The position numbers were made by a program, and so were the translations under genes. Below are positions 40,115 through 64,000 of a stretch of 64,000 nucleotides of DNA, piece after piece. The notes below the pieces were generated by a model that saw only the letters and a program-made list of their open reading frames with translations, made no database searches and was not told the origin of the DNA. The first letter of the stretch is position 1. The number at the start of each line of letters is the position of its first letter. The stretch is taken from the NCBI GenBank assembly GCA_963855995.1, contig OY979716.1, positions 30,528,230-30,592,229 of the forward strand. The letters run 5' to 3'. This stretch comes from Muricea muricata (taxonomy: Eukaryota > Cnidaria > Anthozoa > Malacalcyonacea > Plexauridae).

Positions 40115-42340
40115 GCTTTAAAGAATTAATGCTGGATTAATTAAGAATAAAGGCAAATCATTGTATTCTTTAACTGCACGATGAAAATACGAAAATTTCA
40201 AAGTGTTCGTTCTAGCATATTTAATTTTATAACAGCATTCAACGTTTCTGAGATTATAGGAAGCGTTAACAGCTGACTCTAAATAATCACTTAAATTGAT
40301 ATCACATGAACCCAATCTACATTTGAATAGAAAAATGAGGTCAAAGTATTTCCTCCTAGAAACGAAGGATAATAACTTAAGTTCCTTTAACCTTTCACAG
40401 TGGGGTTTTATTCTTGACGACGACTTTTGTCGCCCTCCGTTGAACTCTTTCCCGGATATCTACTAGATATGCGACCAAACTTCGCAAGCGTAATCCTGAT
40501 GGGGTCGCACCAGGTGGATATAGAGATTCAAAAAGACTTTCGGAATAGAACGTTTACTACAGGTTCTTTTAATGAGGCCTATAGCATTTGGTTAGCAGGG
40601 CTTACTTTGGACATAATGTGTTCACTCCAGGACAGGTTGTGTGTGATAACAACTCCTAAAGTAGCGAAGCCAGCCCAACATTTGGTCATGCAAGTGCAAA
40701 TTTTTCTGTGTTTTTGACCGTATAAGGAACGAATTTCTAAAGAAATGAATAATGATAATGATTTGAATTTGCATAGCATGACCAAATTGTCGGGCTGGCT
40801 TCGCTACTGAACTCCTAAGTCCTTTTTTTCTTTGCTTAAAGACAACTCATTATGGCCAAGCTGGTAGGTTGCACTTACTGGGTTTTTCTTCCTGGTGATG
40901 CGCAGATGTTTGCACTTCTTTAGGTCAAAACTCACATCCCAGGTGTCGCTCCAGCTGTGAACAGAACGTCAAAGTCTTCAGAACTTTTAGATCTCAAAGC
41001 TTTTCTGTCAGCTCTATCTTTCTTTCGACACTTGATTTTGACCTTCTTATCAATCCAGGATAGAGTCAGCTTGTCTTTGACCTTTTTCTTTGGGACAAAG
41101 TTTTTCACTGCATAAAAAAAGGTCTTCCTAGTTAGTAAGATCGACGTCGTTTTCTAAAAATGAGACGTCCCAAGGGGGTATTATGCAAGGTATTTTTGAG
41201 TTCATTGAAGTCAGCATTTTTATGCTCAAATACATACTTTGGTCTTGCAACGACGGGGTTCAATTTGAAGTTGATGTTAAAATTTATATTTGAATGGTCG
41301 GAGCTAACAAGACTCTTGCTGACAGAAACATTATTGTTTAAATTAGGGTTAAAATTGAAGACCAAGTCCAGAATGTTCTTAATTCTAGTGGCTTAATGGT
41401 GTTTCATTTGTGTAAGGAATAGATCATTCAGCAATTCATGCTTGATGTGTAATTGGTCGTGAAGAAGAGGCATATGATTGACCCAGTCAAATTGTGTCAG
41501 ATTAAAATCGCCTAGCAGGAAAATATTTTGAATATTTGATCTTGATATCAGGTTAAAAGTTCTGCGACCAAATCCAGGTAGTCGGTTTTAGTGTCGGGTG
41601 GACGTTAAAAAACACCAAACAGAAATTTCGATCCTGAGGTTGATGATGTTTCACACCAGATAAGCTCACAGCCATTTACTTCCAAGTCACTCCTCCTAGT
41701 ACACACGAGATCATCTCTACAAGCTAGTAAAACATCACCTCCAGTTCGATAAGGGCGGTCTTCTATAAATACAGAGTATCCACGAGGAAGAATTTCATGA
41801 TCGAGCACGGTGCTGTCAAGCGACGTCTCTGTAAGAGCAATGATGTCAATACGTGCGGAAGAGATCAACGCGTGAAAGGCCTGTAGTTTGTTTTTAATTG
41901 ACCGAATGTTGGCCAAAAGACAAGAGAAACCGTGATCAACAGTTTCAGTAACCACATTAGTGAAACTAATCGAGCTGGTTTGTGATGAAAATGTATCATC
42001 CAAACTGTTTGGGAAAACATCCAATAAACATTTTGTACATCTCCATGAAGAGTTTGTTAAACGGATATCTCGATATTCTTTGACGGAAAAACCAGCACAT
42101 TTATAATGTAAATCAAGGCTACAAGATTTGCATTGCACGGTTCGATGATTACAGGCGATAGTTCGTTCACAAATATTACACTTTGACTTCCTCCGAGATT
42201 CCATAGAAGGTCCTGGATTAAATATTATATCACCACATGATAAAGTAAATAAAGAGGCACTCAGTTTAGCCATAAGAGCAGGTTTAGCAAGGTTCAAAAC
42301 AAACAAAGTTGTTTCGAAGTTGTAGTAGAAGCCATCTTGA
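40115..42340 (-). pseudogene. CR1-type LINE ORF2 relic
   Basis: From 42306 down, a 233-codon frame holds the 2A-like string CGDIIFNPGP, a PHD-like zinc motif (CNICERTIACNH, CAGF, WRCTKC) and the start of an AP endonuclease (NIRSIKNKLQAFHALI, DIIALTETSLD). Lower down, fragments in other frames match the end of a reverse transcriptase ORF: LGVVITHNLSWSEHI near 40640 and the tail LKFSYFHRAVKEYNDLP near 40160. Most of the RT core is missing. A 150-bp MITE (40660-40809) is inserted in it. Confidence 0.75.
40660..40809. mobile_element. MITE with 9-bp target duplication
   Basis: aactcctaa is present at 40651-40659 and 40810-40818. The arms agtagcgaagccagccca and gggctggcttcgctact pair, with inner pairing of ttggtcatgc and gcatgaccaa. 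A 9-bp duplication suggests a MULE-like family. The insertion splits the LINE relic. Confidence 0.8.
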
Positions 42341-43517: not shown

Positions 43518-46500
43518 ATGGCATCAAGTTTGAATGACGCTTCACTTCTTTGCAAAAATTGTGACACTGAACTTGCGAAAATAGACCTACTGATGCTTGC
43601 CACAATGCCTCCCTCGCAGCAGCATCTTGCCGTAAAGGAAGGGTTGGAAGATAAAGCTTACACGAAAGTTACAAAACATGATAATCCTAAAGGGGGGAGA
43701 AGTGCAAGATATTGCCCATTTCTAATCCGTTGCCGTAAATGTGACAATCATGTCGGTAATGTTACGCATGTAGGCTCTAAATTACTGGTTTGTCACAAAG
43801 TGGATAATCTTCATCTCTGCAATGGCGCAGAAAAGACACAAATGAATAAACTGTCACGCGTAGCTAGTCGTCTTCAAAGCTTGGGTGTTGAAGTAATCAA
43901 ATTGCTTCCATCTGGTGCAACATGCCAGTCTATTAAACCTAGCGAGCCAATGAAATACTGTGACACAAGTGGTCTCACCTATACATCACAAGAGATTGAC
44001 AACCTGACAATTCAAAACCCACGGAATTACCAGCGTGAGCTCTTTCTGGCTGCGATGCAAGGAAATACGCTTATCTACCTCCCCACTGGATCGGGAAAGA
44101 CTTTAATTGCAGCACTGGTGCTTAGTTGCATGAAGCTACTCAATCCCCAAAAGTTTATGGTTTTCATCGTTAATCGTGTACCTTTAGCGTATCAACAGAG
44201 TGCATATTTTCAATGTCAGCTTCCTCATTTAAGAGTCGAGACTTTAACAGGTGAAATGGTTAAATTTCAGAATGAAAATGTTCATCACGCCCTAGCTGAT
44301 AAAACAGTGGATATCCTTGTCCTTACTCATCAAATTTTTCTCGATTCCCTTGCTGGGGGAAATTCTGCTATTCGACTATCCGACATATCAGTCCTAATCT
44401 TTGACGAAGCACATCATTGTATCGGCGGTCACCCTTATTATAAAATCATGAATGATTTTTATAAAAAAGTCACTCCTGACCATTACAAACCTCTTGTACT
44501 GGGATTGACCGCTTCACCAGCTGGAGAATTCACCATTGAAAGAACTACTGAGATGCTTCAAAAGTTGCTAAAGAATCTAGATTGCAAAGTTACAATGCCT
44601 GTTAAATCGGATGATCTTGTTGCTCACGTCAACGCTCCTAACACGTCATATGACGAAGTCGAAACATTGCAAACAGATCTGGTAATTCTCGAAAGGTGCT
44701 TGGTTGAGCATATCAAAGATGTTAAAAAAAGTCATATTGAATCCACGCCAGGCTACCAACAAGCACTTGCAGGGCTCGATGTACTTTCTAGTCATTTTAG
44801 AGGTGCTTTAAGGAATCTAATACAGAGATGTCATGAAGATAATTCCAAAATAGAAGACAGGACCACTATAGCCCTGATCGTTGGTGAGCACATTATGCGT
44901 CTTCTCTGCGTTATTGAGATAAGTCAGGTTCTTAGCTACAAGGATGCATTGGTGTACCTTAATGATTACATCAACAGCATCATTGGAGCTATTTCTCCCC
45001 ATCACGATCCTCTTAGAAAATTTATTGGGACAAAAGAAACGTTTCGTCAACTAAAAGAATGTGCTACAAAATTAGTTGAAGAGGATTCCATGTCCAATCG
45101 GTATAAATGTCTTGAAAATCGGATACAACAATTTATCTGTCGAGTCAAAGAAGATCCAACCTCCAGAGGAATTATTTTTGTCTGCATGCGCAAGACAGCG
45201 TACAAACTCTGTGAAAAACTTAGGCTGAATGAAGTTATTGCTAGTTTGTCCAATCCTGCCACATTTGTAGGTCATGGAGATGGTAGTTATGACGGGATGT
45301 CCTGGAATAACGAGCAAGAAATTATATTACGGAAATTTAAATCGGGGGACATAAAACTGCTTGTTAGCACAAGTGTCTTAGAAGAGGGGTTAGATGTACC
45401 AATCTGCAATTTAGTTGTCCGCTTTGAAGGTGCAGCAATTTTACGTGCTTTTGTACAAAGTCGTGGCCGTGCCTCTCGCCGATCTGATAGCGAATTTGTG
45501 ATCATTTGTGCCGAGAAAGAGAGAGTTGCAGCTAAGAATTTGGTAGTCAAAGAAGAGAATATGAGAGATGCAGTTGCTCAAGTTATGGATAGTGAAATTG
45601 TGCGACCTCAAGCTCAAGAATTTGAATGTGAAAGAAAACGCCCAAATTTCCCCTCGTCCGAGGTAAAAGGAATCGACAATAGTCAGAAAGTTATGCGATA
45701 TACACCTATCGTTACCATTATTTTACTATTTTTCGAGAGAACGGAAAGTGACGATCAAAGATTAAACACCATCATCAATTCTTTCGAGAAGGATTTCAAT
45801 GTCGAGCCAACGAAGTCTCGGTTACCTAATACTATTCCTGGTCTAAGAGTCCTCGAAAGCGAAGAGTCATTTCAACTTGCTGTGATACTGCAACCAAAGA
45901 ACGACACGAGCCAAGAGTTTCGATCAAAGGATGAGCTGATTACATGCGTCTCGCAAATGCGGTGTGATATCCTGTCGAGTGAACCGAAAAATGTTTGGTT
46001 ACATCCATTACTGCCCAAAACTAGTCGCAAACTCAACGAACCACTTCATATCTTACCCGCAAATTCCTTGTGTCTTGGTACTCTCGTCACCCGGTGCCAT
46101 TTTAGATACCAGTGGGCTCCCGATCCGAACTTTAAGAAGATAAAGATGCTTTTCGATCACAGTTTTAAGATGTTGACCGTATTTTTCGTATTGGTAAACA
46201 GACAATACAAGTTTGAAGTTCGGTATGAAGAACTTGAGGATTTTGTTTTGGTCGATAACCCAACAACTGATAATGAATTGATGAGGGCTTTTTTTACGGT
46301 GAAACATCCACCTAGGGTGTATCAAGAAGTTGGCGATGGCGATGATGATGGCGGCGACAATGGTGATGACGACGGCGATAATGGTGATGACGATGACAGC
46401 AAAAGTGATGATGATGACAGCGATAATGGTGATGACGACGCTGATAATGGTGATGACGACGGCGATAATGGTGATGAAGATGGCGATAATACTGATCAGT

Positions 46501-46613
46501 TAGTGATTCAGAAAGTTTCTCCACTGATGATGAATATCCTGACGTTATACGTAATTTTCATGATCGTTTGGTACCATACCATGCTGATAACGTTCAGTAC
46601 TGGGAGCGAGTGA
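43518..46613 (+). CDS. RIG-I-CTD-like zinc module + SF2 (Dicer/RIG-I) helicase + RdRP head fusion
   Basis: A single 1031-codon frame. Residues 12-15 (CKNC) and 72-75 (CRKC) form a two-pair zinc module whose layout (C-x2-C, about 57 residues, C-x2-C, then a G-S-K-L-L turn) resembles the RIG-I C-terminal RNA-binding domain, here N-terminal. The helicase follows: Walker A PTGSGKT (189-195), DEAH (296-299), LTAS (about 330), then helicase C with STSVLEEGLDVP and motif VI QSRGRASR (about 646). Residues about 700-935 match the RdRP head, ending VKHPPRVYQE. An acidic GDDDGDNGDDD repeat follows. The last 35 residues look out of frame; the conserved sequence continues in another frame from 46496. It probably acts on dsRNA in cytoplasmic RNA silencing or antiviral defence; that role is inferred. 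Confidence 0.85.
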   Translation: MASSLNDASLLCKNCDTELAKIDLLMLATMPPSQQHLAVKEGLEDKAYTKVTKHDNPKGGRSARYCPFLIRCRKCDNHVGNVTHVGSKLLVCHKVDNLHLCNGAEKTQMNKLSRVASRLQSLGVEVIKLLPSGATCQSIKPSEPMKYCDTSGLTYTSQEIDNLTIQNPRNYQRELFLAAMQGNTLIYLPTGSGKTLIAALVLSCMKLLNPQKFMVFIVNRVPLAYQQSAYFQCQLPHLRVETLTGEMVKFQNENVHHALADKTVDILVLTHQIFLDSLAGGNSAIRLSDISVLIFDEAHHCIGGHPYYKIMNDFYKKVTPDHYKPLVLGLTASPAGEFTIERTTEMLQKLLKNLDCKVTMPVKSDDLVAHVNAPNTSYDEVETLQTDLVILERCLVEHIKDVKKSHIESTPGYQQALAGLDVLSSHFRGALRNLIQRCHEDNSKIEDRTTIALIVGEHIMRLLCVIEISQVLSYKDALVYLNDYINSIIGAISPHHDPLRKFIGTKETFRQLKECATKLVEEDSMSNRYKCLENRIQQFICRVKEDPTSRGIIFVCMRKTAYKLCEKLRLNEVIASLSNPATFVGHGDGSYDGMSWNNEQEIILRKFKSGDIKLLVSTSVLEEGLDVPICNLVVRFEGAAILRAFVQSRGRASRRSDSEFVIICAEKERVAAKNLVVKEENMRDAVAQVMDSEIVRPQAQEFECERKRPNFPSSEVKGIDNSQKVMRYTPIVTIILLFFERTESDDQRLNTIINSFEKDFNVEPTKSRLPNTIPGLRVLESEESFQLAVILQPKNDTSQEFRSKDELITCVSQMRCDILSSEPKNVWLHPLLPKTSRKLNEPLHILPANSLCLGTLVTRCHFRYQWAPDPNFKKIKMLFDHSFKMLTVFFVLVNRQYKFEVRYEELEDFVLVDNPTTDNELMRAFFTVKHPPRVYQEVGDGDDDGGDNGDDDGDNGDDDDSKSDDDDSDNGDDDADNGDDDGDNGDEDGDNTDQLVIQKVSPLMMNILTLYVIFMIVWYHTMLITFSTGSE
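46334..46490 (+). repeat. GATGAT/GACAAT trinucleotide-type coding repeat
   Basis: Encodes an Asp/Gly/Asn run linking the head to the next RdRP segment. A length change here explains the frame switch downstream. The His-rich antisense frame is an artefact. Confidence 0.8.
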
Positions 46614-46791
46614 CTGACGTTGAAGATGGCGAGAGGGCCTGGGGTCAATGTTTTACCTACTGCTTCAGAATTCATCAACAGCACTGTACACAGCTTAGAT
46701 CACTGCTGAAAACATTTGAAGCAAGACTTGGAAAGAAAGCTTTTTATAGTCATGTTGACAACAGCTATGGAAGAGGTCCAGAGATCGGATA
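46496..46791 (+). CDS. RdRP segment continuing in a second frame (partial)
   Basis: In the frame starting at 46496 the sequence reads SVSDSESFSTDDEYPDVIRN and on through YWERVTDVEDGERAWGQCFT to a LINE junction near 46790. It is charged, protein-like and fits the post-head part of RdRPs. It overlaps the last codons of the helicase frame, so an indel in the acidic repeat or an unseen tiny intron is needed to join them. The next matching sequence lies beyond the LINE at 52032. Confidence 0.65.
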
Positions 46792-47006
46792 GATAGATAG
46801 ATAAACCTTTATTTAAACACATTAATCTTCTCAACATTAGCTGATTTCCAGAAGGGATGTGCATATAAAAATTATTACATTTTATAAATAATAATGGAAT
46901 AATAATAACAAATTTTTAGATGTATTAACTACTAAAATTACTCTGTTGTACGTACGTGTAGACATATCTCTACATAACTAAATTATTATTACAACTTAGG
47001 AAACAA

Positions 47007-49838
47007 TTAAATTATGGTTGAGGTCGAGGAGGAAAGTTTGTCAATAAAGATGTTATAGGATGTCGAATTTCGTATCTCTTCAGGTATTTTATTCCAAAGC
47101 TTAGCCCCACTATATTGAAAACTCTTTTTTAAAAACTCTGTTTTCGGTCTTGGAATATGAAGCTTTGTCGATGAGCCTCTTAATTCATATTCATGAATTT
47201 CATTTACTTTACGAAAAGCCTCACATAGTCGTTGTGGGGCTAAACCATTTACTATTTTGTACATTAACCTTGCTTTTAGTTGAGCTCTGCGCTCTTCAAG
47301 AGTTACCCAACCTAAGGATTTTCGAGCCAAGATAGACTGACCATGCTCATTATTCAGGTTCATGATCACTCTAGCCGCTCTATTTTGGAGTTTTTGTAGA
47401 CGTTCACTTAGTCCTTTATTACATGTATCCCATATTTCGCAGCAATAATCGAAATAAGGTTGAATTAAGGCATTATAAACTGTTACCAGAGTGCTTTGCT
47501 CAACATAATCCTTTATCCTCATAATTGCTCCTATACCTGATGTTATTTTACTGCTGATATGGTCAATATGCTTTTCCCAACTCAAATTTTCATCTAGTTT
47601 AACTCCAAGTACTTTAGTGTTTCTCACTTTCTTAATCACTTGGTTTTCTATTTTAATCCCTCGTTCGGTATCTATACTATTTGTTTTATGCCTTGATCCA
47701 ATTAAAATATACTCGGTTTTCCCAATATTTAAACTAAGCTTATTTGCACACAGCCATTTCCGGACATTCCCCATATCAATATCCGCCCTCCCTTCCACCT
47801 CATCCACTGTTTCACCAACTGCCGTTAAGTTGGTATCGTCAGCAAATAACCTAGAAGTTGTGCCATTAAGACAGTTTGGCAAATCGTTAATATAGATGAG
47901 GAATAGAAGAGGGCCTAGAATGCTCCCCTGAGGAATGCCACAAATGACTTCTTTCTCCCCTGAGAGCTTATCATTCAATTGACATCTTTGTGTTCGATGC
48001 GTCAAATAACAACGCAAAAGATTTATCGCTTTCTCTTTGAAGCCATACATTTGAAACTTGCTTAACATAATTTCATGATTAACAGTATCAAATGCTTTTT
48101 TCAGGTCGAGAAAAACAACTAAGCTATAAAGTCCACGGTCCATGTTGGCATACCATTCGTTCGTACAATCCAACAATGTAGTAGTAGTAGAATGACAGGG
48201 CCTAAATCCAAATTGTTGTTTTGAAAAAAGTTTCTTCTGATTGAAATATTCATAAATTTGGTCATATAAAATTCGTTCTATAAGTTTACTTACTACAGGA
48301 AGGATTGAAATCGGTCTATAGTTATCCAACATAGTCCGCTTACCTTTCTTAAAAGATGGAATAACTTTTGCATTTTTCCATTCCGAAGGAAATTGATCCG
48401 AGTCAATTGACATATTGATAATCTCAGTAAGAGAAGGCGCAATGGCTGGAGCTGCCGTCTTTAAAACTTTAGCTGAAATTTTATCCATTCCAGTAGCTTT
48501 GGAGGTAGATAATTTCCTTAATAGATTGTATACTAACGTCACACTTACTGGCTTGAACGAGAAACCACTACCTGTTTGAGGTGTAATAAAATCTCGGAAG
48601 CTCACATTATTGTCGCTGGGAATAGTCTCGGCAAGTTTTGGACCAACATTACTGAAATAATCATTAAAAACCTCAACTAATTCCTCAGTCGTTGTCACTG
48701 TTTTTTCGGAGAGCTTAATTTCATTGATCGTAGTTCGCTTTCTATTCCGACCAAGTAAATTATTTATTGTCCTCCAGGCTTGTTTAGGATTTTGATTTTT
48801 ACCTGGAAATTTATGAGCATAATAATTCTTTTTAGCGCAACGCAAGGCAATGTTTGCAGCATTCCTAGATGACCTATATAACAACCAGTCTTCTTTTTTA
48901 TTGGTCTTAATTGCTTTACGCTTGTAAGCATCTCTTTTAAATAATTTTGCCTTAACTTTGCGGTTTACCCATGGAATATTGCCTCTTTTTCTTAATCTTT
49001 TCTTTCTCATAGGAGCATGTATATCTAAAACACTTACGAAAAATGTTTTCCATAATTTCCACATTTCATCTACATTTCTTTTAAACCTTATTTGTTCCCA
49101 AGGTATGTTACACAGGTCATCCAGAAATGATGAAACATTGAAATTTTTAAAATTTCTAAATTCAAGAAAACTTTCCAATTCATTGTTTGATCTTGCGTTT
49201 ATTTTCCGAATCGCATAGATAAGACTATGATCACTGATTCCAATATGGACTACCCCTGAAAAAGTAATTTTTTCAGGCATTGATGTGATAGCCACATCCA
49301 ACAATGATCGACTAGAATCAGTGATGCGTGTAGGACCATGTATCATTTGTGTTAGTTGATATAATTCCAAAATTTCCTGAAGCCTTTTTGTGGTGGACAT
49401 TGTTGATTGTAACATGTTACAATTTAGATCTCCCAAAATATAAAATTCTTTGCATTCGTCATCAATTGATTTGATCAAATTCTCAATTTTTGTAAAAATT
49501 TCGCTTGGAGAACATGGTGGTCTATAAATACTTGAAACTATGAAGGACTGAGTATTGGTCAGCTTAATTTCCACACACACCGCTTCAAGGCCATTTGGAA
49601 CTAGATCAGAACAATTTTTATAATTTAAATTACATCTTACGTATATACACACACCTCCCCCATTTCTATCCCGATCATTCCGCAGTACATCATAACCATC
49701 AATGCTGACAAAACCACCGGGAATAGTTGGATCGAGACGTGTCTCATTAATTGCCAAGACATCCAATTTTTTATCAGAAAGTAATATTCGAATTTCGTCA
49801 AGGTGTTTTACAACGCTAGCTACGTTTAGCATTGACAT
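47007..49838 (-). CDS. LINE ORF2: AP endonuclease + reverse transcriptase
   Basis: 943 codons without a stop. The N-terminal endonuclease shows INETRLD, YRPPCSP, LGDLNCN and the catalytic SDHSLI. The reverse transcriptase shows NYRPISILPVVSKLIERIL, QFGFRPCHST, FLDLKKAFDTVNHE, GIPQGSILGPLLFLIYINDL and the active site FADDT. It ends with the usual CR1 C-terminal region (RRAQLKARLMYKIV, KSFQYSGAKLWNKIPEEIR). No RNase H domain was seen. It is expected to nick target DNA and prime reverse transcription. The start ATG is nominal; the frame begins about 70 bases after the ORF1 stop. Confidence 0.92.
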   Translation of the reverse strand: MSMLNVASVVKHLDEIRILLSDKKLDVLAINETRLDPTIPGGFVSIDGYDVLRNDRDRNGGGVCIYVRCNLNYKNCSDLVPNGLEAVCVEIKLTNTQSFIVSSIYRPPCSPSEIFTKIENLIKSIDDECKEFYILGDLNCNMLQSTMSTTKRLQEILELYQLTQMIHGPTRITDSSRSLLDVAITSMPEKITFSGVVHIGISDHSLIYAIRKINARSNNELESFLEFRNFKNFNVSSFLDDLCNIPWEQIRFKRNVDEMWKLWKTFFVSVLDIHAPMRKKRLRKRGNIPWVNRKVKAKLFKRDAYKRKAIKTNKKEDWLLYRSSRNAANIALRCAKKNYYAHKFPGKNQNPKQAWRTINNLLGRNRKRTTINEIKLSEKTVTTTEELVEVFNDYFSNVGPKLAETIPSDNNVSFRDFITPQTGSGFSFKPVSVTLVYNLLRKLSTSKATGMDKISAKVLKTAAPAIAPSLTEIINMSIDSDQFPSEWKNAKVIPSFKKGKRTMLDNYRPISILPVVSKLIERILYDQIYEYFNQKKLFSKQQFGFRPCHSTTTTLLDCTNEWYANMDRGLYSLVVFLDLKKAFDTVNHEIMLSKFQMYGFKEKAINLLRCYLTHRTQRCQLNDKLSGEKEVICGIPQGSILGPLLFLIYINDLPNCLNGTTSRLFADDTNLTAVGETVDEVEGRADIDMGNVRKWLCANKLSLNIGKTEYILIGSRHKTNSIDTERGIKIENQVIKKVRNTKVLGVKLDENLSWEKHIDHISSKITSGIGAIMRIKDYVEQSTLVTVYNALIQPYFDYCCEIWDTCNKGLSERLQKLQNRAARVIMNLNNEHGQSILARKSLGWVTLEERRAQLKARLMYKIVNGLAPQRLCEAFRKVNEIHEYELRGSSTKLHIPRPKTEFLKKSFQYSGAKLWNKIPEEIRNSTSYNIFIDKLSSSTSTII

Positions 49839-49907
49839 TTTAAAACCCCTTGTTTTAGGGATATTAGAACAAACGATATTATCATCACTCCTCGGCCCAA
49901 CCTCATT

Positions 49908-51161
49908 TCAATTATACGAGTTTAAAAACTGCAAGATATTAGTTTGAAGCACAGAGGTGCCTTCTTTGTTAAGATGTAAGCCTCTACTATTTAGATGAGA
50001 GCGACCGATATTGCTATTATCTAAAAATGCTATGTTGTTTTTTAAGCATTTTGCCTTCAACATATTGTTAGTCTCGTTTACCTTCTTTCCAATGTCTTCT
50101 TTGTCACATCTAGTGACTATAGATGAGATGATAACTTTCGTGTGCTCGCAATCTTTTTGAAAATCTTCTGCTAATTCAATAATTTTTGTAGCAGTTTCTG
50201 TGGGACTTGACCGGCGTAAATCGTTTGTACCTGTATGTATAATAAGCTTATCAGGTTGTTTTCTTGCCGTTGGTTTTAAAAAGTCCGACATGTCACCTAT
50301 GGTTGCTCCTGAGAAAGACTTAACCGATACGTTTCGTTCTGCGTTAGACAATTCCCATCCTTTTACGTATTTTATCACTGAATCTCCTGCTATAACAACT
50401 GTTTGCTTTTCGTGTCGTTTTTGCTTTTCAGGTGTTAAATTTTCATTTGGCTTAAGTGCTTCCTTTGTTTGCATATTTTTCTTTGTCTTTTGTGTACCTC
50501 TATTAAAATTAGTACGGTTTCTTCTATTATCTTCATCTTGCTTTTGTTCCTGTGACTTTGCTGAATGAGCAGCATTGTCATTAGAGCGATCCTTTCTTTT
50601 CTTATCCGAGGCTTTTCGTTGTTGGTTTTGTTTCTTGTTTGCATTTGCTTTGTGAGGGGTTTCCTGGTGGTCTAATTCATCGTCATCTGCATAAATTAGA
50701 CTTTCAAATCTATTGCCAGTCTCGTTACTCGAGTTGATGTTAGAAGCTGAAAATGGCTTGCAACCATGGCAATCATCAGCTCTTTTATCAAGACCTTTGA
50801 TTGTTTGATCGTCGGTAGCTTTTTGTTGGTCACTCAAATTCGATTTTAATAAACCCAAGGCGGTAATTAGGCATTCCTTCTCGTTTTCAAGTTGTTTAAC
50901 CTTAGTATTCAGGTCTGATGCAATGTATGAGAGATTCTCTGTTCGCTCCCTCAATGTCTCGTTGTCATGCTTTAGTTTCACATTTTCCCTCTGAATACAA
51001 TCAATATATTCGCGTGAAAATTCCATTTTTAGGTCTTCTTTTGCTCTCAAACCGTTTAATGTCTTTGAAATCCCGCTAAGATTTTCATTCATTCGCTCTT
51101 CTAGCAGATCAATTCTTTTGGCCAAATCAGAGCAATTATCACATAAAACATTTGACTGCAT
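49908..51161 (-). CDS. LINE ORF1: coiled coil + SGNH/GDSL esterase-like domain
   Basis: About 417 residues from MQSNVLCDNCSDLAKRIDLL; the frame stays open upstream to 51482, so a longer start is possible. A coiled-coil region (heptad-like LEERMNENL, LNTKVKQLENEKECL) is followed by a Lys/Gln-rich linker. A C-terminal SGNH hydrolase fold follows: VVIAGDSVIKYVKG (nucleophile block), SGATIGDM, IIHTGTNDLRR and a final HLNKEGTSVL. Esterase-type ORF1 proteins are known for CR1-group LINEs and likely form the RNP. Confidence 0.85.
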   Translation of the reverse strand: MQSNVLCDNCSDLAKRIDLLEERMNENLSGISKTLNGLRAKEDLKMEFSREYIDCIQRENVKLKHDNETLRERTENLSYIASDLNTKVKQLENEKECLITALGLLKSNLSDQQKATDDQTIKGLDKRADDCHGCKPFSASNINSSNETGNRFESLIYADDDELDHQETPHKANANKKQNQQRKASDKKRKDRSNDNAAHSAKSQEQKQDEDNRRNRTNFNRGTQKTKKNMQTKEALKPNENLTPEKQKRHEKQTVVIAGDSVIKYVKGWELSNAERNVSVKSFSGATIGDMSDFLKPTARKQPDKLIIHTGTNDLRRSSPTETATKIIELAEDFQKDCEHTKVIISSIVTRCDKEDIGKKVNETNNMLKAKCLKNNIAFLDNSNIGRSHLNSRGLHLNKEGTSVLQTNILQFLNSYN

Positions 51162-51184
51162 AGTAGAAGTCTGTATTGTTACTG

Positions 51185-51645
51185 TTAACCAGCCTCGTCC
51201 CCAGGCCCAACCGTTACCGTTGCGTGGGTATTGCGTGGAAAACACAGTCGGAAACGCGCGGTCGGGCCTGGCAGAAAATGCAGAAAAAAGTGTATGATTC
51301 AACGAAAAAGTGATAAGATAGTATTTTATTGAGAATTTCGTTTTCCAGTCGCGTGTGTTGGCCATACATGTGTTTGATAGATGGAAGAGATTACCGAAAG
51401 CCTTAAGAAATCTAATCTCGAAGCTTCGCTTATATCGTCGAGGGGAGTTTCTATTAAACTTGGCAGTGGCTGCTCCACGCATTCCGCCATCTTGAATTCA
51501 TTTTCTGCCAGGCGCTTTCGCTCCCTTCCCCCCTATTTTCTCCTCACGTGTTTCCCGCGCGCATTCACGATATTAAATCGATATATACAATCCTATACAC
51601 TTTTCCTGATTAGAAAATTAGAAAGCGCCTGGGAACGAGGCTAAC
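51185..51645. repeat. Two inverted CCAGGC-type hairpin segments between LINE 5' ORFs
   Basis: cagcctcgtccccaggc (51189) pairs locally with gcctggcag (near 51265). An oppositely oriented pair ctgccaggcgctttc (51508) and gaaagcgcctgggaacgagg (51622-51641) repeats the same ends. They may be regulatory parts of the LINE 5' region or MITEs inserted there. Confidence 0.5.
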
Positions 51646-52021
51646 TGTTAACGGATTTGTTCAAGTTTGCATCATCTTCACCGCTCTGCTCCTCATTGGT
51701 CTCACTTGCTAAAATTCTCAAACGAGTCTTCAAATCATCACATTCTGGACCTTTAATTATAAGTGATTTACTAGTTGAATACCAGCGAATATCGACTGCT
51801 GCATTTTTAAATTGTTTACATCCACCACATGGCACCAACCATTTTGTTTCTTCATTCAAAAATTCGTCGAAAAATTGCTTCAAAGACTCGAAATCTCCTT
51901 CCCATTTAAAAAAACCTTTTCCAGTGACAAATAGATACTTTGCAAATTCTAAATAAGCTTGTATTTGGCGATTGAATTGACTTTCATTGGAGCTACTTTC
52001 AACACGCTCTACAGACGCCAT
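51641..52021 (-). CDS. 5'-most ORF of the LINE (unknown function)
   Basis: 127 codons from MASVERVE. A W-rich small domain with a C-x2-C pair (KWLVPCGGCKQFKNAAVDIR and then WYSTSKSLIIKG) precedes an acidic tail. Similar small domains occur in the 5' region of metazoan LINEs, but no named family is claimed. Translation upstream of 52021 would enter the RdRP exon, so the start is placed here. Confidence 0.55.
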   Translation of the reverse strand: MASVERVESSSNESQFNRQIQAYLEFAKYLFVTGKGFFKWEGDFESLKQFFDEFLNEETKWLVPCGGCKQFKNAAVDIRWYSTSKSLIIKGPECDDLKTRLRILASETNEEQSGEDDANLNKSVNS

Positions 52022-52031
52022 CTTTGCATAG

Positions 52032-52660
52032 AGGCCTCTCCAGTGTGGAGTGTTTAATGACGTAGATTTTGACATCCAGTACACCTTAAACAGTATCATC
52101 ACAACTCACCCTGCTGCTCGTCAAAGATTTGATGAATCTCGCCTTGCTGATCTACTACATCGAAATCCAAATGTGGTCATGACTTGTCTTGAGAAATTGC
52201 GTAACGCGTTCGAACGAGACTTATTCTGCAGTCCGAAAGAAATCTTGGAAAAAATTTTAACTGGAGAAGAAAATGTTCACTCTGGGCATAACATAAATCC
52301 ACTTCCAAACCATTGTGCCTTGATTAAGCGAGTTGTTATTACTCCAACGAGGATTCTGTTTCACCCTCCTGAGGTAATGGCGAAAAATCGCGTTCTTAGG
52401 CAGTATGAAACCGATGATTTTCTCTGTGTGAGCATTCGAGAGGAGGATCTTTCAAAACTGTCCATGGGAAGAGGAAGTATTGACCTGGTCTTGGATAACG
52501 TTAATCGAGTTTTGGATGGCGGGCTGAGTATCGCAGGAAAAATATTCCAATTCCTAGCATCCTCAAACAGTCAACTTCGTAATCATAGTTGCTGGTTTGT
52601 GGGACCGAGTCATTCACCGGACGATATGCGACGATGGATGGGAGACTTCAGCGATATAAA
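52032..52660 (+). CDS. RdRP exon (central region)
   Basis: Open from 52032 in a frame reading CGVFNDVDFDIQYTLNSII onwards, with strong cellular RdRP motifs: IKRVVITPTRILFHPPE, NRVLRQYETDDFLCVSIREE, GLSIAGKIFQFLASSNSQLR, CWFVGPSHSPDDMRRWMGDF. It ends at 52660 before a GT (phase 2). The frame runs on 17 codons to 52712 but without family similarity, so the splice is preferred. The left border is the LINE 5' end or an AG at 52030-52031. Confidence 0.85.
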
Positions 52661-54488
52661 GTTATTAACAGTTAACATTGCCCTGTTATTTTTTAAAGGC
52701 AGTTTTCTCTAAGAGATATAGATACAATTAAGAAAAGCTAGAATATAAAAGAATGTAGTTTAAACGCCGGTTTACGCGCTAGGACATGTCCCATGTGATT
52801 CTGATTTTGGCGTATGTAATTGAGTAAGTGTGTGTAAAGATGCCTCTAAATGATAAAAAGAAATGCTGGCGTTAGCAGTCATTTTCATACGCTATAATGA
52901 CAATCGCATAAGACATGTTGTGAACGGGCCTTAATACCTGTACCTGTAGCATGCGCTTAAAACACAAAATAGTCCGATTCATCTTACATGGTCGAAAATA
53001 CCACTGCACTTACAAAGAAAATGAAACCAAACTATTAAAGTCTTAAAAAATAGGGTACAATCCATTACTAACGTGATTGAAATAAAGAAAAGAGGTATAT
53101 ATGGCCTAATTTTCCCATTTAGGATATTAAACATGCAAAATCTTATGAAGTTAGTTCGCTCACGGCAACCAGATGTAATAACCATGTTATGCTCGTTACT
53201 CTGGTCATATTTAATTTGATACAAATCCCGCAAGAACTGCATTCACGACCCAATGTTTCGACACTTCGGTCTTGTGTTTTCGTCAGAGAAGGTCTGATGT
53301 TGCAACATGACTTCTTATACAGCTATTTCATTTATGGTTGCCATCGACTGTTACTCAAAGATTTAAATCTAAGAAGGGGAGAAGGGTAAAAAAATCGATT
53401 TAAATGAAAATGTCAAAAAGCTTTTAAAATGCTTCTTTAAAGACTGGTACCGATTTTAATTAGGTGGGCAATTTCAAATTAAATGAGAACAAAAATTCGA
53501 AAAGCTGCCGTCGAAAATTGTGCCGTTATTACTCGAAAACTTTTGATGCAAGTGATAAGTATTCCAAATAAGAAAAGACCAATCTGTACAACGAAACAGA
53601 AATCTTTTCGGAGGATTAATTTGACAAAATTATTTTTACATATGTACGCGCATGCATGAAAGACGTTAGTTTTATAAACCATGCAGTTTGTAATGTCTTT
53701 ATAAACCATGCATCTGTGGGGCTACTGATGTTTTCTTTGTGCTTAAAATCATGACTATTCCCCATCATTCTTTTCGTACTTATGTTGTACGCTTGAATAT
53801 TCATGATGACAAGCCGAATTGTTCAGCTACCATCTATATTCAGTGCATGTAGACAGCCCAGAGACAGCTTTTTGATGATCCGTTAAGCGTGATCCAAGCT
53901 TGGCTTTTGTCTGACAAGATATTTTATTCAAAGACCCTGTGTTGTACAGAGTAAACTGTGTGCGTTTTTCGATTTTTGTTTTAAATGATATTTCAGCTTA
54001 GTGAATGCATGCCCCAAAGTTGAAAGAAAAGGCCTTAAGGCGTCCTTAATATCACAACCACCTAAAATTCCTTTGATTAGCAAGGAACCTTGAATTAAAG
54101 AAACTACTGCCGAGATGCTTGATACAAGAATCGCCCGGTGAGATTTTTCATAATTATAAACAGCTTATTTCTTCTCCCAGGTAAAACGAAGATTTGTTCA
54201 TTTGTGTGGGTGTGCGTATAAGTCTAAGAAGGCGAAATGTACATTTATTACTGCACGTTCTACCATGTCTTAAACGGACGGCTGAATTGAGTTTAAATGC
54301 TGCATGAGGTAGAATGGGCGGAGAATGTGATTTCGGCGATGGTGCGCTTTGTATTTATTTATTTAAACCAACGTAGCGAGCTTTAAACATGGTGCGAGAT
54401 GTTGTGGAAAGAAACAAATTTAGTCGGAAGAATTGCACGGAATATTATTAAACGAATGCTCAAATTTGTTTTGCCTTCACTTTTGTAG
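52661..54488. other. Intron of the RdRP gene
   Basis: GT at 52661 and AG at 54487-54488 join phases correctly (AA + A giving Lys). No gene inside. A hammerhead-like motif lies on the minus strand at about 53245-53295. Confidence 0.75.
53245..53295 (-). other. Hammerhead-like core motif
   Basis: The minus strand reads CTGACGA, then an ACAC/GTGT-type stem region, then GAAAC. This fits the CUGANGA and GAAA core elements of hammerhead ribozymes. Flanking stems and the cleavage site are not demonstrated. Confidence 0.3.
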
Positions 54489-54666
54489 ATGTGTTGCAAA
54501 ATACATGGCTCGCATGGGTCAATGCTTTTCCACATCCATAGATACCTATGGTTTAGAAACGGCAGACAATGAAATTTTTGTGGAGGAAGATGATATAATG
54601 ACAGCTGATGAAAAATACTGTTTTTCCGACGGAATTGGTAGAATCTCAAAGGAGTTGACCTTGGAG
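54489..54666 (+). CDS. RdRP exon (GQCFS / YCFSDGIGRIS)
   Basis: Reads CVAKYMARMGQCFSTS through KYCFSDGIGRISKELTLE, the hallmark segment of eukaryotic RdRPs preceding the catalytic core. Acceptor AG at 54487-54488, donor GTACGC at 54667. Length 178 fits phase 2 in and phase 0 out. Confidence 0.88.
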
Positions 54667-54860
54667 GTACGCAAATTTTGTCTCGAAGGCATAAAATAAG
54701 TAATATTTAATATACAAGCAGCTGGAGTGCTTTTAACACAGACGCATTTATATATGTATATATATTAAAGTATAAGCCGCGAGTGTTTTAAGTGGACTTA
54801 AAAACGACCAGTTTTATACCCATCTTGTGAGTTTTATTTACGAAGTAAATTTTAATGTAT

Positions 54861-55120
54861 GGTCAAAATCAATCTAGATATGGTCTGGAGACTCAGCCAA
54901 CCAGTCTTGTGCACGGTGAAGATAGTGGATTTTTGGTTTAACGAAGCAATCGTCTAATAGTGTTGCCTCGCTGAAGCACTCAACGTACTAATGAAATATT
55001 AATAAGCAAAATTTCAAAAGATTTGTGCACGGTGAAGCCAACTCAACTTAGAATCTTAGCTCAGTATAAACGCTTTGCAGTTCGCCGAGTTTCCAGACCA
55101 TGTCTGGATTGATTATGACC
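54861..55120. mobile_element. MITE with about 33-bp TIRs
   Basis: ggtcaaaatcaatctagata near 54861 and its near reverse complement tctggattgattatgacc ending at 55120. Pairing continues with tggtctgg and ccagacca. No ORF. Confidence 0.75.
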
Positions 55121-55613
55121 TGATTAAGGCCCAAAAATCGGCTCATCAAACAGTTCAACAAGTTTCCTTGGCAACATTGTTATAGAAAAATGAGTTTCAG
55201 ATTTAATTCCTATGCAAAAACAAAAATTCGTGCTTAAGACTTCAGTTGTTTTAATATCAGTTTTTAAGATTTTAAAATTATTCAGCAATTGGATTGAAGT
55301 GAAGTGGATGGATTGAAATGGCATGCACATGTCAGTTTGTCAAACTGGTTTTCTACTGTACGAATGATAAAATATCGAAACAACTAACTATCCGCAAATC
55401 TTTCGGCATATTTTGCTCGGTTTTAGGGTTATTTTTACTCATTTTAATACGGTTTTGGAATAAACTCTGTCATATTTACAATTAGCTTGGGCTATTTATG
55501 TTACTGAGAATTCGATCGTAACTCCAGACAAATTTAATAAGTTTTTATGTAACGGATATTTCAGCATTTTAGAAATAACTAAACATGCATATGAGTGATT
55601 CGTGATAACTTAA

Positions 55614-56522
55614 GGAGGCTCCCTACAGTTTGGTTCAGTTACAACCGGATTTATAGAGATCAGACGTTGTCCGCGCTAATCACGCGTGGAATGTTCGCGG
55701 CCGGCTATAAAATTGCTCAAAGTTTTCAATTTTAAAAACAATTATTTTTGCCGATGTTTTCGTGTTTCTACACACAAAAAAACACTAGTTCTTCCTTACA
55801 ATCGTTTGTATTTCTAGGTTCAAGTGGTATGTGTTTTAAATAAGTTTTTGGTTGCTTATTATGTCCAGTAATGTAAGTTTTGATGTACGATATTTCACGA
55901 AAACTGTATGGACTCCGACTAACTATTTTATATTGTCTCCATCGGCTTCATGGCTCTTCTGAAGTATTACCGAAGCTTATGTAAGTTTTCTTGTTCAAGT
56001 AGATGCGATTTTTTTCGTGTTTTAACAACATAATCTTGTAACTATTGTGTATATAATGCATAAAGTCATGTATTTAAGCCATGAAGTCTCTATCTCAAAA
56101 TCTAGTTCTCTCAAAATTTGTATATGTATTTATCCTATTAAGTTCTATTAAATTTCAAAATTTGAAAAAAATCGCCAGTGTAATTTTTGTGAAACTAATT
56201 TTTGGCTTGTAAAAAAAAACTACGCTGGCGATTTTTAAATAATTTTCTAAAAAGATTAAGAATGTCATTATCATGTAATTTCTGCAATAAAAAAGATAGG
56301 TCACCGTGCTCGTTTATACGCTACGATGGCTTTTTTGCTGAATTTTTGTATCTAAATGATGACGACATGTCGCCATGGTTACGTCAAGAGTTACAATTTT
56401 ATTTGAAAATTACTCTTTGATATTCGAGCAAGCAAACGCTTATGCAAAAACATCGAGTTTTCTTATTTAAGACGCCTTTTAGTTTAAATCTTTGATATAT
56501 ACTAAAACTGTAGGGAGCCTCC
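55614..56522. mobile_element. TTAA-flanked DNA element, 909 bp
   Basis: TTAA at 55610-55613 and 56523-56526 bracket the arms ggaggctccctacagttt and aaactgtagggagcctcc. A second inner pair, aaaatcgccagtgta and tacgctggcgattttt, lies near 56166-56240. A 72-codon frame at 56202-56420 has a C-x2-C start (SCNFCNKKDRS) but is not a recognised domain. TTAA targets suggest Kolobok or piggyBac. Confidence 0.85.
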
Positions 56523-56938
56523 TTAAATCACTTATCGTGAGTTCTACCGCAGCATATTTAACTACATACAGTCAGGAATAAAGAATGTTGTACGAGAAAT
56601 CCAATCTCCATATTCAGTGTACAAGTACAAACACCAAATTTTTACAAAATATATGGCCTTACATGCACTACGTACTCTTAATTTAAAACATTGGTTTTAG
56701 GGATTTTCTCAATGTTGCGTTTGAAGATTTTTTCACTCTAATAGACTATTTTTTAGTCTAATAGATTGAATATAGATTAAGGGATACTCTTTCAGTGTTC
56801 CAATCGATTGAAATATGTCACTCAATTAGATTACTTTGCAATAGAAAACGTATGATCTCTAAAAACGATCCTATAAATATTGAAAATTTAATCCATTAGA
56901 TTGAATTTTCAATCGTTTGAATTTTAAGAGAGTATTGC

Positions 56939-57031
56939 GGCGAGGAAACGGATGATATGTGTTTGCCTTATTAAAATTGTATTGTGCTTGCAACGAGGAA
57001 ACGGATGATATGTGTTTGCCTTATCAAATTG
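56939..57031. repeat. Tandem duplication, about 52-bp period
   Basis: cgaggaaacggatgatatgt occurs at 56941 and again at 56993, each followed by gtttgccttat and a ttgtatt tail. Confidence 0.75.
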
Positions 57032-57396
57032 TATTTCATTAAAGAAATTTGGAATATTGCATTCAGTGATAACAAAAATGAAAGCACAAAAAAAACTGCA
57101 CCGTCGTAACGCCGTCAAGTAGTTTTCGTGTAAGTTTGTTTTAATTGTGAAGATTGGGCCAAGATCTTACGACAAAAACTTGGTGTTAGCTCAAGGACCC
57201 ATTATTTGACAGGTTAAAACAGGGGAAATATTTGTAGTTTGTGCCCCATTGTTTTTAGCAATGTACCTAGTGTATTTCTTTGAAATTAATCGCAAATCAA
57301 ACATTTCTTATACGCGTGTAACGAAACAACCTAATCGGTATTCTCCTATAGCAAGTGAATGATTACATTGAATTCAACGTAAGTTGTTTAATTAAG

Positions 57397-57682
57397 GTTG
57401 CACACAACTTGGGGAAACTGTTTACACCTTCTGCCTTTCAAGTACGATGCGCTGGTTACAAAGGAGTTCTGGCATTTGATCCAACATTAGAGGGAAAAAA
57501 AGCGTCGTTTCGTCCAAGTATGAGGAAATTTGAAAGTACTCACAACAGACTTGAAGTTACTCACACGTCTCAACCTCAACGCGTGTATCTAAACCACCAG
57601 GTTATTATGCTTTTATCTAACCTTGGAGTTCCAGATGATGCATTCATCGCACTCCAGAAAGCAATGCTTGATAAACTGGCAG
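57397..57682 (+). CDS. RdRP exon (PSAFQVR...)
   Basis: Starts VAHNLGKLFTPSAFQVRCAG, in phase with the previous exon (…TLE | VAH…), then YKGVLAFDP, FRPSMRKFEST and LNHQVIMLLSNLGVPDD, all typical of eukaryotic RdRPs just before the catalytic block. Donor GTACGT at 57683 (phase 1). The frame is also open upstream to 57355, but the AAG acceptor at 57396 gives the family-like junction. Confidence 0.88.
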
Positions 57683-59341
57683 GTACGTTTAATTGGCTTA
57701 ATTATGAATTGGAAGTAATCACTATAAAGCACCCTAAACACTTGCGGGGTTTACCAAATATCATTGGGGTGCTGTAGGCAAGTTTAGGGTGTTCTGAGTA
57801 TATCTGGGTCAAAGATTAAGGAATATGAAGATGGCTCACTCCCGGAGTTTTCAGGTTATTTTGTGTTCCCGGCTTCTCCAAGGGCTACGTCATTTCCACG
57901 CGCCACGCCAATTGCTCTGTGGCCTAGTTCCCTGATAAATAGATACGTAAAACCATTCGAAGAACGAAAAATCGATTTTTTTGAAAAAACTGGCGCATCC
58001 TATCCACATCATTGGACCAAAATATATATATCTTATTGGATGTTTTGGTGTACAATATCGCTGTATATTTTTACGAGTTCTGCAGTATTTTGACGAGCCT
58101 GCAGGGCGAGTCAAAATGCAAAGAACGAGTAAAAATATACAGCAATATTGTACACCAAAACATCTCATAAGCTATTTATTTTACAACTGTTTTGATCGGT
58201 ATGCTTTTATTGAAAAAGGAACTATGTAGACAATACAATTAGCATACCTGGTCTTAGCTCTTCGCTACAACGAATGTGATTAGGTGAAACATAAGCTCGT
58301 CAAACTAGTTTAAGTTTTATCTTGTCAACCATTTTGATCTTTTTTGAAAGTGGAAGGTATTTTTGGCGAAAAAACGAAGAAAAGCGATATGTATTTGCTT
58401 CAATATAAGCCTTTTAACATCTCAACATTAACCGACATATTGGATTTACGAAGAAAGTAAATGGATTTGGGTGAAAGAAGTCAACGTAAGTCTTTTTTTT
58501 TTAATATTATGTTTTGCACACGTCAGTTTGTCAAACCGGTTTCCTACTATACAAGTACCCAACTGTACAAATAACCAACTGTCCGAATATCGCTGTATAT
58601 TTGTACTCGTTTTGCGAGTTATTTGGACACTTTTTAACAAAGTTGTATAATAATTGATATTATAGGTACGTTTTTTAAAATATTTGGTTACATTGTGTGT
58701 TGGTTCGTAGATTTTCAAAAAAAAATCAACTGTTATAACTTGGGAATCGCCGAGAAAGAAGCCATGCTGCTTATTCTCCATACTATCTGAATTCTAAACT
58801 CGCACCTTCAATAGACTGTCTAGTTTTTCCGATAGGTTAATTTCCAACTTAATTTATTTTAAAACTCCCATTTGTAGGATCACTTATTAACGTATCAGAA
58901 TCTATAAAAGTTTTGATGATAAAAGTTTGCGATAAACTTTACAACTGCTTGCAAGAAAGATTGCCTAGAGCAAGGTGGCAACTAAATCAATGACTTCCCA
59001 TGTTTGCAAAGTATCCTTGCATAAAAATGCTGCACTCATGGTGGTTGCAATATTGCAATCTCACCAGGAGATTCGAAGCCCCCATTTGCAAATATATTAT
59101 GCCTGCACAGTAAGTACTGTGCTTAAAGTATTAGATTAAGGGCCTCATGTTGATATGACCTGAGCTTTCTTGCTAGCCCAATCTCAGCTTTATAACCTTT
59201 ACTATAATTCTTATACTACACACAAATTCTCTTGTATCTTACGAGTTTTTTACTTTTGATAGCTTTGAAGTTGAAGTTGTATTGCCAAGTAACAAAGTGT
59301 TGGACAAAGTAAAATCTGGCATATACTCTAGTTATGTTTAA
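57683..59341. other. Downstream intron-like region; one possible further exon
   Basis: A TTTGTAG acceptor at 58871-58877 would open a phase-matched frame (GSLINVSESIKVLM) that fits the pattern after LDKLAG loosely, but it stops after about 38 codons without a clear donor. The catalytic DxDGD motif was not found. A fold-back lies at 58033-58172. Confidence 0.4.
58033..58172. mobile_element. Fold-back MITE
   Basis: gatgttttggtgtacaatat near 58038 pairs with atattgtacaccaaaacatc near 58150. The inner arms ctgtatatttttacgagt and gagtaaaaatatacag pair, and the loop region contains a further actcg/cgagt pairing. Confidence 0.8.
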
Positions 59342-62300: not shown

Positions 62301-62388
62301 ACTGGGGAGAATGTTATTGTTTGTAAGTGCCGGAAGTAAACAAAGCATGGAAAACTGGTGCATGCGCAGATGCGACTGTACCCTATCT
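59342..62388. mobile_element. TTAA-flanked DNA element, 3.05 kb
   Basis: TTAA at 59338-59341 and 62389-62392 flank the arms agataggttacagtcgcatc and gatgcgactgtaccctatct, which pair over about 31 bp. Overlapping 105-120-codon frames at 59476-59885 and a few shorter ones are present, but no transposase domain was recognised. A single related end occurs at 28664. Superfamily: Kolobok or piggyBac by target site only. Confidence 0.82.
59571..59885 (+). CDS. Hypothetical frame in the TTAA element
   Basis: 104 codons (MCEFVQIFIAGPSTIHIARQ to VSYRQR). It looks more protein-like than the overlapping frame 59476-59838. No domain was recognised. It may be one exon of a transposon gene; a GT follows in places but no acceptor was matched. 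Confidence 0.25.
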   Translation: MCEFVQIFIAGPSTIHIARQAELCCRTLWQSFERSCSLDDFEASTIEIAGAVSNLVNIAMCFCRGHYLRERETTLGFSACHEGDFGQYMNNRRVHEDTVSYRQR

Positions 62389-62392
62389 TTAA

Positions 62393-64000
62393 TAGTATTG
62401 TACTATTGTATTTATTTTAATATACATAATCACATATAAGAGAAATGCTGCAGCTACCTCTGGTACTTTTAAGTTATAATTAATTGTATTACTCAAGCAA
62501 CTAATGTTACCTTGTAGCAAATAATTGTTTGTAGGTTAGACGTTAAATTATGTGATCAGTTGTATTTTTCAGAATCAATAATAGTAATTTTAAAATTGCC
62601 ATTAATTCACCAGTAAGAAGCAGCTGGGAAATTTGTTGTCGCTGTGCATGATAATCGCGGGCTATTGCATTCTACTTGTGTTTTTGCAACAAACGTATTC
62701 CACATGCACTTTGATTTAGCAGGACAGTTTCTAGCGCTTTGTTTCTCTCTTATTTTCGTTTGTTCCTCAAGACGATCGATTTACACTTGAGGAGAAAAAC
62801 GTAGGCTTATGGATTACGTGCATTTTATGACAAGAATCGGTTGTATTAAAATAAAATTTGCCATCAGGTGGGCGGTGTCAGTTTTTGCATTCACATCGCT
62901 GTAAATGTAATTGGAATTTGACACAAAATTGTTGAATGAAGACAAGTCGTTTCGGCAATTGCATTTACTGAGTTAAATCCTGGACACTCAAGACTATTCC
63001 AGAAATGTTTGATTGAACAGAAATGGCATAATTCGTAATGCAGGGCCGCGATCATTGTGGAGCGTGGTTTTTGATCAGGACACTTCAAAAAGTAGGTAAA
63101 ATTGAAGTATGCTGTTATATTTTGTGTACGTCTTTCCCTGATGGAGTTTTGTTGCAATGATTTTGTGTGCTAGACAACAGAAATTAGAATTCGAGCCTAC
63201 TTGTTGTGTAGTGGTTAGTATCACATATTCAACACAATTAGCTTTTCTTCCAAAAAGTTACTTGCAGTACCTATCTTTCCACCTTCCAACCTTGATTTCT
63301 AGATGTAATTAGGCTTCATAAAAATTGGACTGGCTCGCTAAAAAAACGCGAGAACTTAAGGCTGATCGAAATGTGCACAGTTGGCGTCTGGGAATAAAAA
63401 TTGACCTCGCACGCGATCGGCTTTGTGCACGCGTTTCATTTAACTGTTACTAGCTACATGAAGATTTAGAGTATATTGCTCGGCATTAATTTGAGATAAC
63501 TGTATAGTTTTCGTGCTTTAATTCTGTTGCATCATAAAATATTTTATTTTGAGTAATTGTGCGCGTTCGTTGTTCAAACATTTCCCTTCCCCGAAAATTC
63601 TAGCTTTTCCTTTAAAATTATTTGCATATAGTTATAAAGTCTAGGTTTTTTTGCAAAAAGTAAGCGCTCTATCTGGGCTGGAAAAATTGGAATAACGGTG
63701 GAAAATTTTAATGAAAGTTCAAGTATATTTGTGGTGCCATGACGCCATATTTATTTCTCTGGGAATTGTTCGAATATCACTGCCATATTCTACACCTGAA
63801 GTATAAAGGCTCGCCACATATTTCCCTTCGAACCCAACTTTTGTTTGGACAAAAATTTAAAAATTTGCTGCTGTGTGTCTAGAAGAAATATTATATGAAA
63901 TTGATGTTGCAAAAAAGATTTGTTTTGCATTTTTGCTTTATAATTACCCAACACAATGAACACCAGTAGCTTTTGTACACAACTTATTATATAACTTATT
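62393..64000. other. Intergenic or intronic, no gene recognised
   Basis: AT-rich, with no RdRP-like exon, transposon end or repeat array noticed. If the RdRP gene continues, its next exons may lie in this part as short exons or past the window. Confidence 0.45.

Follow-up and report, generated by a model that had tools for sequence, protein, structure and literature searches.

The Caenorhabditis elegans protein DRH-3 cooperates with worm RNA-directed RNA polymerases (RdRPs). Also in this worm, an interaction joins CDE-1 and EGO-1, and MUT-2 UG tails bring in RdRP (PMC7988573; this and the other papers cited here are open-licence articles in PubMed Central (PMC)). The fission yeast RNA-directed RNA polymerase complex (RDRC) consists of Rdp1 (the RdRP), Hrr1 (a helicase), and Cid12 (a non-canonical poly(A) polymerase), and loss of any component reduces small interfering RNA (siRNA) production (PMC2965749). 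Helicase-RdRP fusions, with the helicase ahead of the RdRP in one protein, have been named in Hydra, Nematostella, Dictyostelium (RrpA-C), and oomycetes (PMC4791657, 2016), and the fusion as such is therefore already known. Here, we describe a locus of that kind in a 64,000-nucleotide stretch of DNA from Muricea muricata, hereafter referred to as the window; the comparison with Dictyostelium Rrp is confined to helicase-RdRP order, Rrp sequences not being in our set. An earlier note on this DNA had cited such fusions from Dictyostelium; in Metazoa, too, a helicase-RdRP fusion is not new, given the published Hydra and Nematostella proteins. The additions of the present analysis to the fusions of PMC4791657 are a RIG-I C-RD-type zinc module and a nucleotidyltransferase. 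The main text of that paper contains none of the words zinc, RIG-I, nucleotidyltransferase, or Cid12, and searches of an open-licence PMC library brought up no report of a C-RD or a nucleotidyltransferase in helicase-RdRP proteins.

We consider it likely that a copy of a conserved gene has recently been disrupted at this locus, and that the products of its intact relatives most likely work as an RNA-directed RNA polymerase complex in a single chain. The 1031-amino acid (aa) open reading frame (ORF) at 43518-46613 (+) matches the Pfam families ResIII (2e-16), DEAD (3.6e-16), and Helicase_C (3e-16), and PF05183 (RdRP) matches the window at 52050-52709 (2.1e-26) and 57355-57774 (1.5e-29), in keeping with the RdRP assignment of the earlier note. 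That note had read a single frame carrying two CxxC pairs and a superfamily 2 (SF2) helicase and running uninterrupted into the RdRP head. The cysteine pairs and the helicase do share one frame, but the continuity does not hold. In P0001, a 95% identical relative, zinc module, helicase, and RdRP head lie in a single 1289-aa ORF; tblastn of this protein aligns with the window in frame 3 until 46460, switches to frame 2 for 46496-46786, and returns to frame 3 from 52050 (91.4% identity over 52050-52745). Thus, a frame change between 46460 and 46496, followed by a long interspersed nuclear element (LINE) from 46787 to about 52049, breaks the exon and leaves the 3′ end of the 1031-aa ORF out of frame relative to P0001.

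The proposal that RdRP exons with correct splice phases follow was borne out. Both introns are well formed: the first starts with the donor GT at 52661 and ends with an acceptor preceding 54489, the second starts with the donor GT at 54667 and ends with one preceding 57397, and the joined peptides are collinear with relatives. GTACGT starts at 57683, which makes 57682 the final base of exon 3, as previously placed. The closest named match to the window, from the octocoral Dendronephthya, has 56% identity over the first part and 78% over exon 3 (57394-57681 against P0124, tblastn). In 57601-64000, no additional RdRP exon could be made out convincingly; the best tblastn E-value there, at a limit of 100, was 3.4, and the weak downstream-exon matches were dismissed as chance. 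Because of this, the catalytic DxDGD was not found within the window, which covers just part of the PF05183 domain. A nucleotidyltransferase was likewise not found in the window, and a scan of a prokaryote contig collection with the window ORF gave 19 pattern matches and 0 relatives. The features of the locus are collected in Table 1.

Table 1. Features of the helicase-RdRP locus and of the LINE within it (window coordinates)
Feature	Position	Strand	Basis or remark
RIG-I C-RD-type zinc module (predicted)	43518..43907	+	Residues 1-130; Cys pairs C12/C15 and C72/C75
SF2 helicase, duplex-RNA-activated (RLR/Dicer) type	44013..45587	+	Residues 166-690; Pfam ResIII/DEAD/Helicase_C, PDB phmmer
RRM-like and PH-like N-terminal region of RdRP	45699..46334	+	About residues 728-939
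Acidic D/G/N-rich tract, frame 3 to frame 2	46335..46496	+	tblastn of P0001, sequence
RdRP exon 1 continued, frame 2, stop-free	46496..46786	+	94.8% identity to P0001 residues 968-1064
LINE within RdRP exon 1	46787..about 52049	-	Both ends inferred from limits of coding similarity
LINE ORF2, endonuclease and reverse transcriptase, 943 aa, open	47007..49838	-	RVT_1 4.7e-33, Exo_endo_phos 1.2e-7
LINE ORF1, GDSL esterase domain, 524 aa, open	49908..51482	-	Lipase_GDSL_2 2.6e-10
RdRP exon 1 remainder, 3′ of LINE	52050..52660	+	PF05183 2.1e-26; donor GT at 52661
RdRP exon 2 (CVAKYMARMGQCFSTS...)	54489..54666	+	tblastn matches of P0044, P0045, P0124; splice-phase check
RdRP exon 3, last exon detected within window	57397..57682	+	PF05183 1.5e-29; GTACGT from 57683; splice-phase check

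The architecture of the family is well supported by the relatives. Judging from their sequences, the intact members are single predicted polypeptides of about 2300-3200 residues with a C-RD-type zinc module, an RLR/Dicer-type helicase, an RdRP with an RRM/PH-like N-terminus, a nucleotidyltransferase, and a conserved C-terminal region, in that order. Among the 120 of 208 homologue matches that were listed, 74 of the first 80 have PF05183 plus helicase, after which the E-values step from 1e-148 to 1e-44 and the matches become other helicases, Dicers, and RIG-I-like receptors (RLRs). Queries with P0045 (Stylophora) and P0146 reach long proteins of Montipora, Acropora, Desmophyllum (P0121), Dendronephthya, Nematostella, Hydra, Hydractinia, and Pythium oligandrum, as well as unnamed ones. 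A Dicer-like helicase lies N-terminal to the RdRP on one chain in the relatives, and single exons and long proteins alike preserve the succession of zinc module, helicase, and RdRP. PF05183 is full-length in P0123, P0124, P0126, and P0128, each with DLDGD. A DxDGD-type motif is present in 68 gathered proteins; 37 of these have an upstream helicase match, and 32 of the 37 extend at least 560 residues past the motif. Two C-x2-4-C pairs lie in front in 22/23 of these long-tailed fusions that retain the helicase start, the exception being P0159.

Many of the unnamed homologues are automatic predictions, which raises the question of whether helicase and RdRP are two adjacent genes merged by gene prediction. 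We regard this as highly improbable, as P0001 and others hold both in one shared ORF that is stop-free between them, the order is conserved from hexacorals to Hydra and Pythium, and a published tree gathers the RdRP-fused helicases into a single clade, distinct from the helicases of Dicers (PMC4791657). One relative, P0125, encodes 2792 aa (8,379 coding bases including the stop) on a 9,488-base contig, as a spliced transcript would give; genomic relatives, e.g., P0055 and P0073, stop at an exon boundary, GDFS.IR.

Beyond the RdRP, the relatives continue into a nucleotidyltransferase, so that the fusion proposed by the earlier note was right in kind and incomplete in extent. MTPAP-like_central (PF22600) is above the Pfam cut-off in P0123, P0126, P0128, and P0167, and a 279-residue piece of P0126 matches TUT4 (1.1e-7), TUT7 (4.4e-5), and Cid1 (4.4e-4) in the PDB. 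The Cid1/TUT-type signature G[ST]...[DE]x[DE] is present in 31/32 long-tailed helicase-RdRP fusions, although this is not an unbiased census, many of them having come from a query containing the nucleotidyltransferase. The exception is the octocoral P0124 (Dendronephthya gigantea), where GS...SDxD is lost (GATRTMLFQTKSPVEF) from a nucleotidyltransferase region, about residues 1864-2289, that still matches the family profile. Among 21 RdRPs with equally long tails and no upstream helicase, the signature pattern is absent in 16 and present in 5; four of the latter (P0131, P0143, P0160, P0165), which have no helicase match, are taken for truncated fusions, and the match in P0149 looks like chance. 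The nucleotidyltransferase is followed by a stretch of about 430 residues with matches to Pythium P0179 (3e-13) and to the scallop RdRP P0133 (4e-32), the latter having no helicase match. No family name was found for this region. In P0122-P0127, it is a conserved C-terminal part of about 300-450 residues with an HFGR-like motif.

At the other end of the chain, the earlier note had assigned the first residues to a zinc module of the RIG-I C-RD type. The predicted structural model of residues 1-130 has the C-RD fold, and the contrary outcome, a model without such a fold, was looked for and not seen. The four-cysteine pattern of a C-RD, in two pairs, is present, and zinc binding is predicted from it: Cys72/75 occur in 56/56 alignment rows and Cys12/15 in 49/56, the remaining 7 being gapped there. 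Lys94 is conserved in 53/56 rows and aligns by eye with the lysine of LPLIKIRSF in the RLR C-RD P0120. In P0126, PF11648 (RIG-I_C-RD) scores 26.6, against a Pfam cut-off of 25.6.

The helicase that follows matches 9mw6_A (named AncD1D2) in the PDB with an E-value of 6.9e-43 and LGP2 (5jb2) and RIG-I (4on9) with 2.9e-36 (phmmer). In a tree of 59 rows, which contained four RLRs and one FANCM row of great length but no Dicer labelled as animal or plant, the RdRP-fused helicases are separate from fungal Dicers and RLRs, and group with three other proteins at 82/94; the group labels of unnamed proteins in this tree are guesses. As the RLRs appear set apart in it (four rows of the 59, with the long FANCM row), we tentatively rejected the idea that RLRs descended from helicase-RdRP fusions. 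Neither is the pair of zinc module and helicase an RLR, since the C-RD is N-terminal to the helicase and not C-terminal, or a Dicer, since Pfam scans gave no RNase III or PAZ match for the window ORFs or for any of ten relatives (P0121, P0123, P0124, P0126, P0128, P0146, P0153, P0157, P0167, P0179). No CARD is among the Pfam matches of the window ORF. As a separate observation, dsrm and Dicer_dimer match P0157 weakly; a dsRNA-binding motif at its residues 323-391, N-terminal to the helicase, falls just under the cut-off (dsrm 2.1e-4), and by eye the N-terminus of P0146 resembles this start.

How far the window copy itself is damaged depends on the nature of its two interruptions. The inserted LINE measures 5.3 kb and is adjoined on the left by a (GATA)n run. 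A clear target-site duplication was not found, the longest words common to both ends being 5 bases. We noted a 153-aa ORF at 51644-52102 (-), located where the interval from the esterase ORF to the resumption of RdRP exon 1 falls, which has a single Pfam match (E 0.19) and is possibly part of the LINE 5′ region. The window copy is probably disrupted by the frame change and the LINE, and its product is then probably at most a truncated C-RD-helicase protein. The three coding pieces contain 0 stops outside the frame change and the insert, which makes the damage look recent. The same absence of stops would fit an animal that still carries an intact allele, with the frame change an assembly or sequencing error and the LINE a heterozygous insertion. 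A sequence error could account for the frame change, which falls within an acidic repeat of low complexity, and the open LINE ORFs make the insertion look recent. The LINE can hardly be a sequence error, however, and in the sequence as given it breaks the exon; we therefore hold an intact allele to be doubtful, though it deserves serious consideration. That the copy as it stands is still in use, with the LINE region spliced out or with the truncated ORF serving as an LGP2-like C-RD-helicase, seems improbable. A CAG acceptor-like site at 52041-52043 lies just 5′ of the resumed coding sequence, and the 1031-aa ORF holds C-RD, helicase, and RRM/PH-like region. P0001, however, is one ORF here, and a spliced product would be without its conserved residues 968-1064. 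Rescue by splicing was rejected on the grounds that frame 3 stops at 46613 and that the skipped part of P0001 is coding and conserved.

We turn to what the intact relatives of this disrupted copy may do. By enzyme kind, the family resembles RDRC, which has the same three (RdRP, RNA helicase, and Cid-type nucleotidyltransferase), except that these are three separate proteins in yeast and one chain, with an extra C-RD module, in the fusions. The family thus looks like a single-chain counterpart of RDRC with an RLR-type sensor in front, a likeness that concerns enzyme kind and not orthology to Hrr1 or Cid12. C. elegans EGO-1/CDE-1 and MUT-2/RDE-3 are similar in that a terminal nucleotidyltransferase works with an RdRP, and differ in being separate worm proteins. 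From the anatomy of the chain, in which domain presence, order, and catalytic signatures are what we observe, we infer a coupling of RNA-end sensing to RNA copying. The C-RD, to judge by its fold, would capture duplex or 5′-triphosphate RNA ends; the helicase, whose motifs are present, would use ATP to travel along or remodel the duplex; the nucleotidyltransferase, which carries its signature, may tail RNA 3′ ends, its activity and substrate being presumed; and the RdRP, with DxDGD in the relatives, would copy the presented strand into new double-stranded RNA. A likely cycle would run from end capture by the C-RD through ATP-driven handling by the helicase and 3′ tailing to copying by the RdRP. 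We are almost evenly divided on the broader proposal that this is an ancient self-contained RNA-copying machine, whose single chain has combined sensor, motor, RdRP, and tailing enzyme in oomycete and cnidarian alike; RDRC and the worm set DRH-3/EGO-1/CDE-1 would be its dispersed counterparts. If it is true, the sensing of RNA ends would feed straight into RNA copying, with no signalling cascade in between, and C-RD sensor modules would not be confined to RLRs but would also belong to RNA-copying enzymes in two or more eukaryotic supergroups.

Several observations weigh against these interpretations. The PF11648 match to residues 9-117 of the window ORF has an E-value of 2e-4, but its 21.9 bits fall below the 25.6 cut-off; PF11648 is listed for 7 of the first 80 homologues, and hhalign of the module against four RLR C-RDs is weak (4.9% probability, E 0.008). 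In RLRs, and in C. elegans DRH-1 and DRH-3, the C-RD is C-terminal, whereas in the fusion family it is N-terminal. Outside Anthozoa, the anthozoan module profile matches only P0167 (6e-6), P0169 (5.6e-4), and Pythium P0179 (2.9e-4), and the remaining non-anthozoan modules are recognized by cysteine spacing, a loose pattern used without a chance control. A sensor module in the oomycete Pythium is accordingly proposed less firmly than one from corals to Hydra. In P0121 (Desmophyllum), the DxDGD pattern was unmatched, and this protein was left out of the count. The helicase start is missing in 9/32 of the long-tailed fusions, and 4 of these 9 (P0158, P0175, P0177, P0178) keep only about 55-110 helicase residues. 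In addition to the sampling bias of the signature count, PF22600 fails to reach its cut-off in P0146, P0157, and P0179 and is unlisted in P0121, P0124, and P0153. The literature covered, open-licence PMC only, contains no biochemistry of cnidarian fusion proteins. Finally, three of the four Nematostella RdRPs go up after a viral mimic, yet secondary siRNAs were undetected by three approaches (PMC12768352), and amplification of RNA interference (RNAi) is therefore not established.

This last result also favors the main rival to RNAi amplification, an antiviral duplex-making or tailing role. The fusions would then be sensor-effectors and not siRNA amplifiers, turning viral RNA into long duplex that feeds RLR signalling, or tailing it for decay, without secondary siRNAs. 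Poly(I:C) raises Nematostella RdRP1-3 and also RLRb (PMC8476169), the induced RdRPs not having been matched to LOC5511133. The front module has an innate-sensor fold in the predicted model, and a tailing-type enzyme appears to lie on the same chain. In Dictyostelium, on the other hand, work on helicase-RdRP fusions has treated them as RNAi factors, and RrpC is needed there for small RNAs to spread 5′ (PMC3661229). On balance, we judge this antiviral role unlikely, yet far from negligible. For Branchiostoma RdRPs, a role unrelated to RNAi was speculated by the authors (PMC6396948). If cnidarian RdRPs share a chain with a RIG-I-type end sensor and a tailing enzyme, the function of animal RdRPs other than those of nematodes would become testable in Nematostella and Hydra. 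The fusion family, in which the C-RD module stands ahead of the helicase and not behind it, would link RLR-type sensing to RNA copying.

Two other ORFs in the window were assessed by eye. A 233-aa ORF at 41605-42306 (-) appears to belong to another LINE, with a Cys-rich PHD-like part and then an endonuclease-like start. A 961-aa ORF at 15278-18163 (-) appears to have SAP-like, Ulp1-like cysteine-protease, PHD-like finger, and C-terminal HExxH metalloprotease-like parts.

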